A DNA stretch of 52,514 bases. It comes from Synechococcales cyanobacterium CNB (GTDB lineage: Bacteria > Planctomycetota > Phycisphaerae > Phycisphaerales > UBA1924). Under the pieces are notes generated by a model. That model was not told the DNA's origin and did no database searches. It saw nothing but the letters and a program-made list of their open reading frames with translations. The translations under genes were made by a program, and so were the position numbers. Shown here piece by piece: positions 33,829-39,055 of the stretch. The stretch is taken from the NCBI GenBank assembly GCA_030263455.1, contig SZOZ01000015.1:1-52514 (forward strand), given 5' to 3'. The stretch's first letter is position 1, and each line of letters opens with the position of its first letter.

Positions 33829-35640
33829 ATGAGCGTCAACGCCCAGATCGCCGAACGGCTCGAACAGATCGCCGAAATCCTTGAACTCCTCGGCGAGGAC
33901 CGCTTCCGCGTCGCCGCCAACGCCAAGGCCGCCCGCGTCATCGCCGATCTCACCACCGACCTTGCCACGCTCGCCCACGACCGCGGCGCGCTGCTCGCCA
34001 TCGAAGGCATCGGCGCCAAGACCGCCGACAAGATCATCGAGTTCGTCAACACCGGCCGCATCACCGAGCACGAGGAACTCCGGGCCAAAGTCCCGCCCGG
34101 CCTCCTTGAAATCCTCCGCATCCCAGGCCTCGGACCCAAAACCGTCGCCATGCTCTGGAAGGAGGCGGGCGTCACCGACCTCCCCTCGCTCAAGCGCATC
34201 ATCGACGACGGCTCCATCCTCAACCTCCCGCGCATGGGCGCGAAGACGGTCGAGAACGTCAAGAAGTCCATCGAGTTCGCCGGCCAGACCGAGCAGCGCA
34301 TCCCCCTCGGCATCGCCCTCCCCATCGCCGAAGAGATCGTGGCACGCATGAGCGCCGTCACGGGTGTCAAGCATGCTGCCTTCGCCGGCTCGCTCCGGCG
34401 CGGAAAGGAGACCATCGGCGACGCCGACGTCCTCGTGGCAACCACCGATCCCGACGCCGCGCACCAAGCCTTCACCACCATGCCCGGCGTCGTGCAGGTG
34501 CTCGCCAGCGGCGGCACGAAGAGCTCCGTCCGCCTCCGCGCCGCACACGACCTCGGACGATGGACCCTCGAAGGCCAGCACGGCAAGGAGTCCGGCGGCG
34601 TCGCACTCCAGGCCGACCTCCGCGTCGTCGATCCCGCCGCCTGGGGCGCGGCCATGATGTACTTCACAGGCTCCAAGGAGCACAACGTCCGACTCCGAGA
34701 ACTCGCCCTCAAAAAAGGCTACACACTCAACGAATACGGCCTCTTCCACAACGACAACGACAACACCCCGCCCCAACACCGCGGCGTCAAACCCCTCGCC
34801 TCACGCACCGAGGATGCCGTGTACGCCAAGCTCGGCCTCCCCTTCATCCCCCCCGAAATCCGCGAGGACCGCGGCGAACTCGCCCTGGCCGAAACTCCAC
34901 GCTTCGTCGAAATCGACGACGTCAAGGCCGAACTCCACGCCCACACCACCGCCTCCGACGGCTCGCTCGAGCTCCACGAACTCGTCAACGAAGCCAAACG
35001 CCGCGGCTTCCACACCATCGCCGTCACCGATCACTCCAAGTCCAGCGTCGTCGCCGGCGGTCTCGACGAGAAACGCCTCGCCGAGCAACGCGAACAGATC
35101 GAGGCGCTGCGCAAGAGCACGAAAGCCATCTCCATGCTCTGCGGCAGCGAGGTGGACATCCTCGGCGACGGCCGACTCGACTTCGACGACGAAACCCTCG
35201 CCACCCTCGACCTCGTCGTCGCAAGCCCCCACGTCGCGCTCAAGCAAGACCCCAAGGCCGCCACCAAACGCCTCATCCGCGCCATCGAAAACCGATTCGT
35301 TCATGTCCTCGGCCACCCCACCGGCCGTCTCATCAACCGCCGTCCCGGCCTCAGCCCTGACATGGCCGAAGTGATCGCCGCCGCGAAGCAGCACCGCGTC
35401 GCCCTCGAAATCAACGCCCACTGGATGCGCCTCGACCTGCGCGATTCCCACGTCCGCGCCGCCGTCGAGGCCGGCTGCCTCATTGCCATCAACTGCGACG
35501 TTCACGGCGCGGCCGATTTCGACAACCTCCGCTACGGCGTCCTCACCGCCCGACGTGGCTGGCTCCCCCCGGAACAGTGCGTCAACTGCTGGCCCCCCAA
35601 AAAATTGCGCGACTGGCTCGCCTCCAGACGCACACAATGA
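33829..35640 (+). CDS. polX: DNA polymerase X family protein with PHP domain
   Basis: 603 residues. The N-terminal helix-hairpin-helix region (~1-130; LLAIEGIGAKTADKI, LRIPGLGPKTVAML) is followed by the polymerase beta palm with metal Asp pair in GSLRRGKETIGDADVLV (~190-200) and third Asp in LQADLRVV. The C-terminal PHP domain (~365-600; ELHAHTTASDGSLE, AVTDHSKSS, VLGHPTGR, NCDVHG) supplies the 3'-5' exonuclease/phosphatase site, with its metal ligands present. Bacterial PolX is a gap-filling repair polymerase. AATGAT lies 6 nt before the ATG and there is no Shine-Dalgarno. Confidence 0.95.
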   Translation: MSVNAQIAERLEQIAEILELLGEDRFRVAANAKAARVIADLTTDLATLAHDRGALLAIEGIGAKTADKIIEFVNTGRITEHEELRAKVPPGLLEILRIPGLGPKTVAMLWKEAGVTDLPSLKRIIDDGSILNLPRMGAKTVENVKKSIEFAGQTEQRIPLGIALPIAEEIVARMSAVTGVKHAAFAGSLRRGKETIGDADVLVATTDPDAAHQAFTTMPGVVQVLASGGTKSSVRLRAAHDLGRWTLEGQHGKESGGVALQADLRVVDPAAWGAAMMYFTGSKEHNVRLRELALKKGYTLNEYGLFHNDNDNTPPQHRGVKPLASRTEDAVYAKLGLPFIPPEIREDRGELALAETPRFVEIDDVKAELHAHTTASDGSLELHELVNEAKRRGFHTIAVTDHSKSSVVAGGLDEKRLAEQREQIEALRKSTKAISMLCGSEVDILGDGRLDFDDETLATLDLVVASPHVALKQDPKAATKRLIRAIENRFVHVLGHPTGRLINRRPGLSPDMAEVIAAAKQHRVALEINAHWMRLDLRDSHVRAAVEAGCLIAINCDVHGAADFDNLRYGVLTARRGWLPPEQCVNCWPPKKLRDWLASRRTQ

Positions 35641-35654
35641 CGTTGGCAATCAAC

Positions 35655-35683
35655 TTGACTTGAGACTGAGTCTCAGATTCAAT
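35655..35683 (+). promoter_or_regulatory. promoter with Fur-like 7-1-7 operator in the spacer
   Basis: TTGACT (35655-35660) and TTCAAT (35678-35683) are 17 nt apart, as a good housekeeping promoter. The perfect palindrome TGAGACTGAGTCTCA (35661-35675) fills the spacer. TGAGAxTGAxTCTCA-type palindromes are the hallmark of Fur-family operators, so binding would block RNA polymerase. Iron (or another metal) repression of the downstream prepilin-like gene is inferred, not shown. The 85-nt gap is markedly more AT-rich than its surroundings. Confidence 0.6.
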
Positions 35684-35724: not shown

Positions 35725-36603
<879 letters not shown>

Positions 36604-36628: not shown

Positions 36629-36634
36629 TACAAT
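36629..36634 (+). promoter_or_regulatory. -10-like box TACAAT before the DNA methyltransferase
   Basis: TACAAT lies 6 nt before the GTG at 36641, with no Shine-Dalgarno between. This fits a leaderless transcript. No convincing -35 hexamer. Confidence 0.45.
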
Positions 36635-36640
36635 CGCGCC

Positions 36641-37507
36641 GTGAACCGGGTCATCCTCGGCGATTGCCTCGACGTGCTCGCCACACTCCCGCGCGGGATG
36701 GCGCGCCTCATCTACGTCGATCCGCCGTTCAACACCGGCAAGGTCCAGCAGCGCGACCGCATCCGCACCACCGCCGACGAAACCAACGGCACGCGCGCCG
36801 GATTCGCCGGCAAGCGCTACCGTGTTGAGCGGGTCGAGAGCGGCTCATACGGCGACGCGTTCGGTGAGGACTACCTCGACTTCCTGATGCCGCGCCTGAA
36901 AGCCGGCCTGCGCTGCCTCGCGCCCGACGGCTCGCTCTTCGTTCACCTCGACTGGCGCGAGGTCCACTACGTCAAGGTCGCGCTCGACCGCCTCCTCGGA
37001 CGCGATCGCTTCATGAACGAGATCGTCTGGGCCTACGACTTCGGCGGCCGCTCCCCCCGCCGATGGCCCGCCAAACACGACACCATCCTCTGGTACGCGC
37101 TCGACCCCTCCAACTACGTCTTCAACGAGCCTGAGATCGACCGCATCCCGTACATGGCCCCGGGCCTCGTCACGCCGGAGAAGGCCGCGCGCGGAAAGTC
37201 CCCGACCGACGTCTGGTGGCACACCATCGTCCCCACCAACGGGCGAGAGAAGACGGGCTACCCGACGCAGAAACCGCTCGGCATCGTCAATCGCATCGTG
37301 CGAGTCCACTCCTCGCCCGGCGACGTCGTGCTGGACTTCTTCGCCGGCAGCGGCACCACCGGCGAGGCTGCCGCCACGCACGACCGAGACTTCATCCTCA
37401 TCGACAGCAACCCCGAAGCCGCGGCCGTTATGGCGGCGCGACTCGCCCGCTTCGACCCCGAATGCGTCGGATTCGAACAGCCCCTTGCCGACGCACGCTG
37501 CGCATAG
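36641..37507 (+). CDS. site-specific DNA methyltransferase (beta-class order, probable N6-adenine)
   Basis: 288 residues. Catalytic motif IV DPPF (residues 27-30, in LIYVDPPFNTG) precedes the SAM-binding motif LDFFAGSGTTGEAA (~230), the order of the beta class. DPPF rather than SPP favours N6-adenine. Other landmarks: LFVHLDWREVHYVK and the pre-motif TQKPLGIVNRIV. GTG start at 36641 with TACAAT 6 nt upstream. No restriction enzyme or specificity gene is nearby; the neighbours are a prepilin-like gene and ffh. Likely an orphan (regulatory or CcrM-like) methylase. Recognition sequence unknown. Confidence 0.88.
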   Translation: MNRVILGDCLDVLATLPRGMARLIYVDPPFNTGKVQQRDRIRTTADETNGTRAGFAGKRYRVERVESGSYGDAFGEDYLDFLMPRLKAGLRCLAPDGSLFVHLDWREVHYVKVALDRLLGRDRFMNEIVWAYDFGGRSPRRWPAKHDTILWYALDPSNYVFNEPEIDRIPYMAPGLVTPEKAARGKSPTDVWWHTIVPTNGREKTGYPTQKPLGIVNRIVRVHSSPGDVVLDFFAGSGTTGEAAATHDRDFILIDSNPEAAAVMAARLARFDPECVGFEQPLADARCA

Positions 37508-37516: not shown

Positions 37517-39055
37517 ATGTTCGAGCGTCTTTCCGAAGGATTCGGCAAGGTCTTCCGTCGCCTCTCCGGCCAGGGCACCATCACCGAGGCCAACGTCCGC
37601 GAGGCCATGGAGGAGGTGCGCACCGCCCTCCTCGACGCCGACGTCAACTACGACGTCGTCAACGAGTTCTGCGACGACGTCGTCGCCGACGCCCTCGGCC
37701 GCGAGGTCACCAAGAGCCTCCGACCCGGCCAGGAGATGGTCGGCATCGTCCACGCCCGCCTCGTCGAACTCCTCGGCGGCGAAGAGGCACTCGCCGAAGC
37801 TACCGACCCCGAACGCGCCCGTGCCGCCCCCGGCCCCGCGATCATGCGCGTCTCCCCAGGCCCAACCATCGTCATGATGTGCGGCCTGCAAGGCTCCGGC
37901 AAGACCACCACCTGCGGCAAACTCGCCGCCTACCTCAGCAAACGCGGCCGCAGCGTCATGCTCTGCGCCGCCGACCTCCAGCGGCCCGCCGCCGTCGAGC
38001 AACTCGAAATCGTCGCCGCCCAGGCCCGCCAGGCCGCCCCCGGCGGCGCGCCCGTCCACTTCCACGGCGAGCCGGACAAGTGCGCCGAGTACGGCAAGGC
38101 CGTCGGCGTCGCCGTCCAGGTCTGCCGACGCGCCCTCGACGCCGCACGCAAGGCCGGCGCGGACGTCCTCATCCTCGACACCGCCGGCCGACTCCACGTC
38201 AACGACGAACTCATGGGCGAACTCCAGCAGGTCCGCCGCGCCCTCAACCCGCACCACGTCTTCCTCGTCGTCGACGCCATGACCGGCCAGGACGCCGTCA
38301 ACAGCGCCAAGGCATTCCACGAACGCCTCGAAGTCGACGGCGTCATTCTCACCAAGTTCGATTCCGACACCCGCGGCGGCGCGGCCATCTCCATCCGAAA
38401 GGTCACCGGTGCGCCCATCCGCTTCATCGGCGTGGGCGAAAAGGCCGAGGCCCTCGAGGAGTTCCACGCCCAGCGCATGGCAGGACGCATCCTCGGCATG
38501 GGCGATGTCGTCTCCCTCGTCGAGAAGGCACAGGAGCAGGTCTCCGCCGAGGACGCCGAACGGCTCGCCGAGAAGATGGCTCGCGGCGAGATGACGATGG
38601 ACGACTTCCTCGCCCAGCTCCGCATGCTCCGACGCCTCGGCCCCATGCGACAGATCCTCGGCATGTTGCCCGGCGTCGGCGCGGCCCTCAAGGACGCGCA
38701 CATCGACGAAGGACAACTCGACCGCGTCGAAGCCATCATCAACTCCATGACCAAGGAAGAACGCCGCGAGCCGAGGATCATCAACACCAGCCGACGCCGG
38801 CGCATCGCGGCCGGCAGCGGCACCGACCAGAACGCCGTCGGACAACTCGTCAGGCAGCACGACGCCATCAGCAAAATGACCAAGCAGATGGCCGGCATGA
38901 GCGCCAAGTCGAAGGTCGCCGCCGTCAAGGAACTCGGCGCGGCCGGCATGGGGGGCATGGTCCCGGGCCTCAAGGGCATGCCCGGCTTCAACACCAAAGG
39001 CTCCACGCGCGCGACCGCCCCCGGCCGTTTCAAGCAACGCAAAAAACGCCGGTGA
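37517..39055 (+). CDS. ffh: signal recognition particle protein Ffh
   Basis: 512 residues. NG GTPase domain: N-terminal helix bundle, then P-loop GLQGSGKTTTCGKLA (~120), CAADLQRPAAVEQL, LILDTAGRLHVNDELM, TKFDSDTRGGAA and IRFIGVGEKAEALEEF. The methionine-rich M domain (~330-475; MTMDDFLAQLRMLRRLGPM, LGMLPG) binds 4.5S RNA and signal peptides. A ~25-residue Pro/Ala-rich insertion (EATDPERARAAPG) precedes the P-loop, more than in E. coli Ffh. It targets membrane proteins co-translationally with FtsY; no ffs RNA gene is recognisable in this window. Confidence 0.96.
   Translation: MFERLSEGFGKVFRRLSGQGTITEANVREAMEEVRTALLDADVNYDVVNEFCDDVVADALGREVTKSLRPGQEMVGIVHARLVELLGGEEALAEATDPERARAAPGPAIMRVSPGPTIVMMCGLQGSGKTTTCGKLAAYLSKRGRSVMLCAADLQRPAAVEQLEIVAAQARQAAPGGAPVHFHGEPDKCAEYGKAVGVAVQVCRRALDAARKAGADVLILDTAGRLHVNDELMGELQQVRRALNPHHVFLVVDAMTGQDAVNSAKAFHERLEVDGVILTKFDSDTRGGAAISIRKVTGAPIRFIGVGEKAEALEEFHAQRMAGRILGMGDVVSLVEKAQEQVSAEDAERLAEKMARGEMTMDDFLAQLRMLRRLGPMRQILGMLPGVGAALKDAHIDEGQLDRVEAIINSMTKEERREPRIINTSRRRRIAAGSGTDQNAVGQLVRQHDAISKMTKQMAGMSAKSKVAAVKELGAAGMGGMVPGLKGMPGFNTKGSTRATAPGRFKQRKKRR

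Follow-up and report, generated by a model that had tools for sequence, protein, structure and literature searches.

What does a perfect inverted repeat do inside the predicted promoter of a prepilin-like gene? The question was raised by an earlier note on a stretch of 52,514 nucleotides, called the window here, in which the 7-1-7 repeat TGAGACTGAGTCTCA stands at 35661-35675, before a gene for an N_methyl / H-X9-DG prepilin-like protein. The elements of this region are as follows.

35655-35660, plus strand: the -35-like hexamer TTGACT, kept in 3/3 genomes of the genus examined
35661-35675, no strand: the candidate core operator, TGAGACTGAGTCTCA, of 7-1-7 form; with one more base on each side, it agrees with the family-wide box TTGAGACTNAGTCTCAA at 15/16 positions
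35667-35681, no strand: an overlapping second 7-1-7 element, imperfect, TGAGTCTCAGATTCA, 6 bp downstream of the core and scoring 12/16 as a 17-mer
35678-35683, plus strand: the -10-like hexamer TTCAAT, also kept in 3/3 genomes of the genus examined
5 bp downstream of the TTGACT/TTCAAT pair: an alternative promoter pair, TTGAGA/TACGAA
35714-35718, plus strand: the ribosome-binding site GGAGG, as read from the sequence

The sequence confirms a perfect 15-bp palindrome of 7-1-7 form between TTGACT and TTCAAT, ahead of the prepilin start, an ATG at 35725 that follows TTCAAT by 41 nt. The palindrome had also been said to fill the 17-bp spacer (TGAGACTGAGTCTCAGA) exactly; it does lie within the spacer but takes up 15 of the 17 bp. 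Both in form, a 7-1-7 inverted repeat with TGA...TCA ends, and in position, between the predicted -35 and -10 hexamers of its presumed target, the site has what is looked for in a Fur operator. The second element is partly a consequence of the self-similarity of the core palindrome.

Symmetry alone proves nothing here, since the window, at 69% GC, contains 5 perfect 7-1-7 palindromes (2 of them intergenic), compared to a mean of 6.15 in 20 Markov shuffles; palindrome statistics by themselves were thus rejected as evidence. An exact match to TGAGACTNAGTCTCA occurs only once in the 3.2-Mb genome, at the window site. In the two congeneric genomes that were read, one base differs, making the palindrome imperfect (TGCGACTGAGTCTCA), and both hexamers are preserved, implying that it is the motif, rather than perfect symmetry, that is conserved.

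More telling is where the motif recurs within the same genome (an assembly of 3.2 Mb in 17 contigs, with 98.7% completeness). Allowing up to 2 mismatches, the 15-mer was found at 4 sites, with none for the reversed control: the window prepilin, feoAB, a heme-oxygenase operon, and one more. The feoAB site (L003) lies 57 nt before a feoA-like gene, recognized by eye, that is followed by feoB, recognized also by Pfam; the heme-oxygenase site (L002, L113) lies just before a short open reading frame followed by heme oxygenase (PF01126, E 9e-25). The fourth site (C5, L004) is in what looks by eye like a tRNA sequence and is probably due to chance. Random placement of the 15-mer is therefore refuted, given that two of the three near-copies outside the window precede feoAB and the heme-oxygenase operon, iron-uptake genes of the kind expected for a Fur operator. 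Searching with the 17-mer and up to 3 mismatches gave 3 sites versus 1 for the control, namely the window, the heme-oxygenase operon, and a site on contig C12; the last two carry 3 mismatches as 17-mers, a threshold at which the control also gives 1 match. Downstream of the C12 site comes a secreted protein that carries a GC-type dockerin domain (NF041540, E 3.3e-15) and, after it, a second prepilin. N_methyl genes number 59 in this genome, by our estimate some two per cent of the genes in a genome of this size, and chance is therefore unlikely to have placed two of them at such a small number of motif sites.

Comparison with relatives supports the Fur-like operator suggested earlier. Across 61 genomes of the family, the exact pattern TTGAGAMNNNKTCTCAA was found at 48 sites in 25 genomes, with 0 for the control. 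It does not occur in the window's own genome and is confined to 25 of the 61, implying that the sites are degenerate. All 48 were read, and no site is deeper than 30 nt within a called gene. Among the flanking proteins scanned with Pfam (59 of 61, leaving out L037:1-1358 and L047:1652-3017), N_methyl was the commonest family, with 9, followed by heme oxygenase (8), CtaA/Cox15 (5), cytochrome c7 (5), Peripla_BP_2 (4), FeoA (3), and SBP_bac_6 (2). The gene caller, trained on seven genes of the window, was rough, and start sites in the relatives may be off; at 7 of the 48, no flanking gene was called (L036, L040, L049, L089, L092, L097, and L106). Two of these, L049 and L097, are just upstream of FeoB matches, and L040 contains what looks by eye like a feoB gene. 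At 11/48 sites, an N_methyl segment is no more than 450 nt away, and a prepilin is the second gene at two further sites (L089 and L128). At L124, one box serves both a prepilin and a binding protein that runs the other way; after the binding protein come a permease and an ATPase, which look, by eye, like a siderophore or heme importer.

Beyond the family, a scan of 150 genomes of the class gave 53 sites, with 1 for the control. Flanks at the 28 of these loci that were read, 26 of them outside the family, include feoA, feoB, and, by eye, SufB; N_methyl was present at 2 of the 28. Judged from sequence, the predicted box is class-wide, and its use before prepilins is concentrated in the window's family. 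A secondary peak at +-6 around the 48 family sites (mean 7.31) was considered and rejected as evidence, being, by our reckoning, about what the self-similarity of the palindrome alone should give.

Other genes also accompany the box. At L031, L047, L054, L055, L088, and L100, Fur-like boxes lie between a gene for a multiheme cytochrome c, by eye of the quinol:cytochrome c oxidoreductase type, and a divergent CtaA/Cox15-like gene; at L100, only the latter was called. Outside the family, boxes precede SufB-like proteins at L305, L314, L315, L317, L318, and L319, which suggests iron-responsive control of Fe-S assembly. The secreted protein that follows a Fur-like box at L297, in another family of the order, and at L033 and L128 resembles, by eye, the dockerin protein of C12.

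If the palindrome is an operator, which gene does it serve? The candidates at the locus are these.

33829-35640, plus strand: a PolX-type DNA polymerase with a PHP domain, the upstream neighbour, ending 20 nt before the box
35725-36603, plus strand: the prepilin-like protein, 292 aa, the probable target of the operator (PF07963, E 4.4e-7; PF07596/DUF1559, E 3.6e-5, partial)
36641-37507, plus strand: an N6/N4 DNA methylase, downstream
37517-39055, plus strand: SRP54 (ffh), the other neighbour at the prepilin locus in several relatives

Since polX ends before the box and runs in the same direction, it is not the target. For the prepilin, we searched 350 genomes of the order with a profile made from nine orthologs and found matches at E <= 1e-60 in 26 of them. 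Of these loci, 24 could be tested, with L017 and L224 lacking the 5' end; adding L009 and L013 made 26 testable loci. A box scoring at least 13/16 is present within 300 nt upstream at 21 of the 26, and none is found in that interval at the other 5 (L222, L228, L229, L230, and L232). In a first count, 20 of 23 orthologs had such a box, compared to 2 of 4,600 shuffles and a single one of 91 segments from other prepilins. The latter are a loose control, N_methyl segments preceded by 150 nt or more of sequence in planctomycetes, verrucomicrobia, and other groups, mostly of other families and phyla. The sole control segment to score highly (L195, from a Phycisphaerales metagenome-assembled genome) belongs to the prepilin and secreted-protein module described below. 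Several orthologs are flanked by polX and ffh; others, as judged by eye, are beside RNase III, RNase H, IspH, or CsoR-like genes, with the box kept; thus, the box follows the gene and not the place. No iron gene is a consistent neighbour of the orthologs. At L018 and L219, the ortholog is beside a divergent small regulator of the CsoR/FrmR-like type, a possible second metal-responsive neighbour.

These comparisons bear on two other ways of reading the locus. A palindrome count close to that of the shuffles is what one would expect if the repeat were a chance occurrence or a hairpin ending the polX transcript, but no T run follows it, and the box is kept before orthologs that include ones away from polX; we consider this explanation extremely improbable. 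Alternatively, the operator might be real but act on the methylase-ffh pair, with the prepilin a mere passenger. The three genes are on one strand and only 37 and 9 nt apart, and the methylase is possibly transcribed by read-through from the prepilin. Against this, the box stays with the prepilin at loci where neither gene was called in about 1.5 kb downstream (L211, L213-L216, L220, L225, and L226), and TACAAT at 36629-36634, 6 nt before the GTG of the methylase, may be the -10 element of a separate leaderless promoter, so we think it very unlikely that the pair is the relevant target. Each of the three genomes of the genus has a lone N6/N4 methylase after the prepilin, with ffh next in two and not seen in the third; the methylase was not called at the other ortholog loci read.

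An operator of this kind needs a regulator. Two FUR-domain proteins above the PF01475 cut-off are encoded in the window's own genome, and at least one in each of the 61 family genomes; their absence would have refuted the earlier note. Among the loci read, the type met with most often (L005-like; L005:1483-1950) has a strongly kept VSKATVYRT-KLLQ-AGIIQ segment and, by eye, seems to be without the classical Fur histidine cluster (the HHDH metal ligands), and its way of sensing metal may be unusual. The earlier note had also suggested looking for sites before feoB and fur: feoAB has one, and in the stretch examined upstream of the two FUR genes of this genome no box was found, with the best score 8/16 for both. 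Of 30 FUR loci read, two of which yielded no gene call, one had an upstream score of 12, the highest reached. Autoregulation of fur, which is common in bacteria and not obligatory, was accordingly dropped as a candidate here.

Taken together, the site itself, the fact that it is conserved upstream of orthologs and recurs ahead of iron genes, and the Fur-family proteins encoded in these genomes lead us to propose that the palindrome is the operator of a Fur-family iron-responsive repressor, with a probability that we would put at about 0.86. PerR-, Irr-, Zur-, and Mur-like regulators use similar inverted-repeat boxes, and one of these sensors might be the one that binds, in which case the signal would be peroxide, heme, zinc, or manganese. 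The second FUR protein of this genome (L006) is in fact nearest to Irr and PerR models, under their cut-offs, and relatives have proteins that look, by eye, like Zur. The box flanks, though, with feoAB, heme oxygenase, Peripla_BP_2, and SBP_bac_6, make up an iron-supply set, and among the 25 of 35 flank Pfam families listed, there was no zinc transporter or catalase. A sensor of something other than iron therefore seems unlikely to us, less so than either of the two explanations considered for the locus above.

With an iron-responsive Fur repressor as the preferred reading, we imagine that when iron is sufficient, the metal-loaded protein would bind between and over the promoter hexamers and block RNA polymerase; as iron falls, it would leave, and the prepilin-like gene would be transcribed along with feoAB and the heme-oxygenase operon. 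That the repressor binds here, that it switches the gene off and not on, and that it responds to iron are things that we infer from the general behaviour of Fur and the position of the site; either of the two Fur-family proteins may be the one involved.

What, then, would be made under iron shortage? Two parts of the predicted protein can be placed on the sequence.

35740-35817, plus strand: the N_methyl prepilin cleavage segment
36436-36471, plus strand: the H-X9-DG motif (H238...D248-G249), invariant in 9 aligned orthologs

The N-terminal segment scores 29.7 bits with PF07963 (cut-off, 21.2) and 21.6 bits with TIGR02532 (cut-off, 16.3). DUF1559 (PF07596) is matched at 24.4 bits (cut-off, 23.3), over profile positions 2-93 of 268 only, and H238-X9-D248-G249 fits the H-X9-DG pattern. 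No curated whole-length model of a type II pseudopilin (GspG) or type IV major pilin was matched above its cut-off; TIGR01710 reached 33.7 bits (cut-off, 88.85), over residues 10-71 only. Sequence matches in the PDB, which include pilins, are confined to residues 1-79, beyond which the partial DUF1559 match is the sole one. The alignment used for folding came from loci of a general [AG]FTL[IV]ELLV scan, that is, from distant prepilins, and the predicted structure (mean pLDDT 65) has a long N-terminal helix and a poorly modelled C-terminal part. A fold search of the PDB with this model gave nothing at E <= 0.001, the best match being a type IVb pilus at E 0.51. Given the weak model and the lack of a fold match, we draw no function from the predicted structure. 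Four histidines (78, 206, 238, and 250) and several acidic residues are invariant in the nine orthologs and would allow a metal site.

Prepilin peptidase would probably cleave the product, which would then be retained in the envelope, or assembled there, like a pseudopilin. Its most likely role, one to which the probability given above does not extend, is to display or export proteins that the cell uses when iron is short; this we infer only from co-regulation with iron and heme uptake proteins, as is also the case for the link of the prepilin to metal acquisition that had been proposed in the earlier note.

Secreted proteins are found beside a second type of prepilin. Several boxes separate a prepilin of this type from a secreted protein, encoded divergently, that has the motif DRWNYPFN:

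Loci L320-L349: divergent pairs of a prepilin and a DRWNYPFN secreted protein, sharing a Fur-like box

Relatives of the secreted protein occur in 120 of 150 family genomes. At the 30 loci with the best matches, which are not a random draw, a divergent prepilin segment is present at 30/30, and a box of at least 12/16 within 500 nt is present at 26/30; among control windows drawn from these loci outside either possible upstream region, 0/2,503 had one. Three of the DRWNYPFN proteins match no Pfam family. The tails of these secreted proteins look dockerin-like or PEP-CTERM-like, with NCBIfam matches just under (28.9 versus 29 bits) or far under the cut-offs and, in one of the three scanned, none. 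The window's own genome has no match to the DRWNYPFN protein. Its counterpart of the module prepilins is the C12 prepilin (G000:C12:114388-115955; L117:8389-9956), with a best E of 6e-43 versus 5e-17 for the window prepilin, and there the secreted partner is a different one, the GC-dockerin protein. One can envision that this planctomycete family has a dedicated low-iron surface system, in which Fur-controlled prepilins and co-regulated secreted proteins, some ending in what look like dockerin-like or PEP-CTERM-like segments, capture or display an iron or heme supplier; the window gene would be a solitary member, and the common form would be a divergent pair sharing one Fur box. We offer this as a tentative idea, more doubtful than probable.

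The predicted operator, standing before the prepilin and before iron-uptake genes of relatives, suggests that pilin-like proteins are made in iron shortage. In planctomycetes, prepilin-like genes number from dozens to about a hundred in a genome. For a subset of these genes, a conserved Fur box provides an expected condition and a set of partners, and function becomes testable by iron limitation. The box also provides an iron-regulon motif for a class for which no published one was found: among the matches listed in our searches, no title or displayed abstract described a planctomycete Fur regulon, and the only paper listed by one of the searches (PMC12038028) concerns, in the part seen, Chlamydiota. 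Nor was there a report of Fur-controlled prepilins in planctomycetes among the matches listed, which were mostly titles and abstract openings and covered few subscription journals.

How does this compare to what is known in other systems? The Fur box of enteric bacteria and Bacillus is also of 7-1-7 form, TGATAATNATTATCA. The box described here shares with it the 7-1-7 symmetry, the outer TGA and TCA, the position over the promoter, and the iron-uptake targets; it differs in its inner bases, here GACTNAGTC, and is a G+C-shifted box.

Pilins themselves have been tied to iron before. As cited in PMC13170364, pilin or pilus genes of Moraxella catarrhalis (Luke 2004) and Xylella fastidiosa (Zaini 2008) are under Fur repression and rise when iron is low; they belong to the type IV pili of Proteobacteria, whereas here we are dealing with single prepilin-like genes of an expanded planctomycete family. 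The same source describes Legionella PilA2, a pilin linked, like the one proposed here, to iron assimilation, but its gene is described as lacking a consensus Fur box and as not (highly) regulated by iron. From planctomycetes come the 100 N_methyl / SBP_bac_10 (DUF1559) proteins of Tuwongella immobilis, often flanked by genes for signal-peptide proteins (PMC8567305, in part), and the DUF1559 proteins of Rhodopirellula baltica, proposed to bind solutes, with 9 of the 74 genes going up under cold or salt shock (PMC2754498, in part); both belong to the same expanded family as the window prepilin. In the portions of those two papers that were read, no link of these proteins to iron or Fur was seen, the word iron occurring 0 times in the first and 1 time, on NifU, in the second. 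Fur-repressed pilins are thus known elsewhere; their use in the expanded planctomycete family, together with secreted partners, appears to be new.
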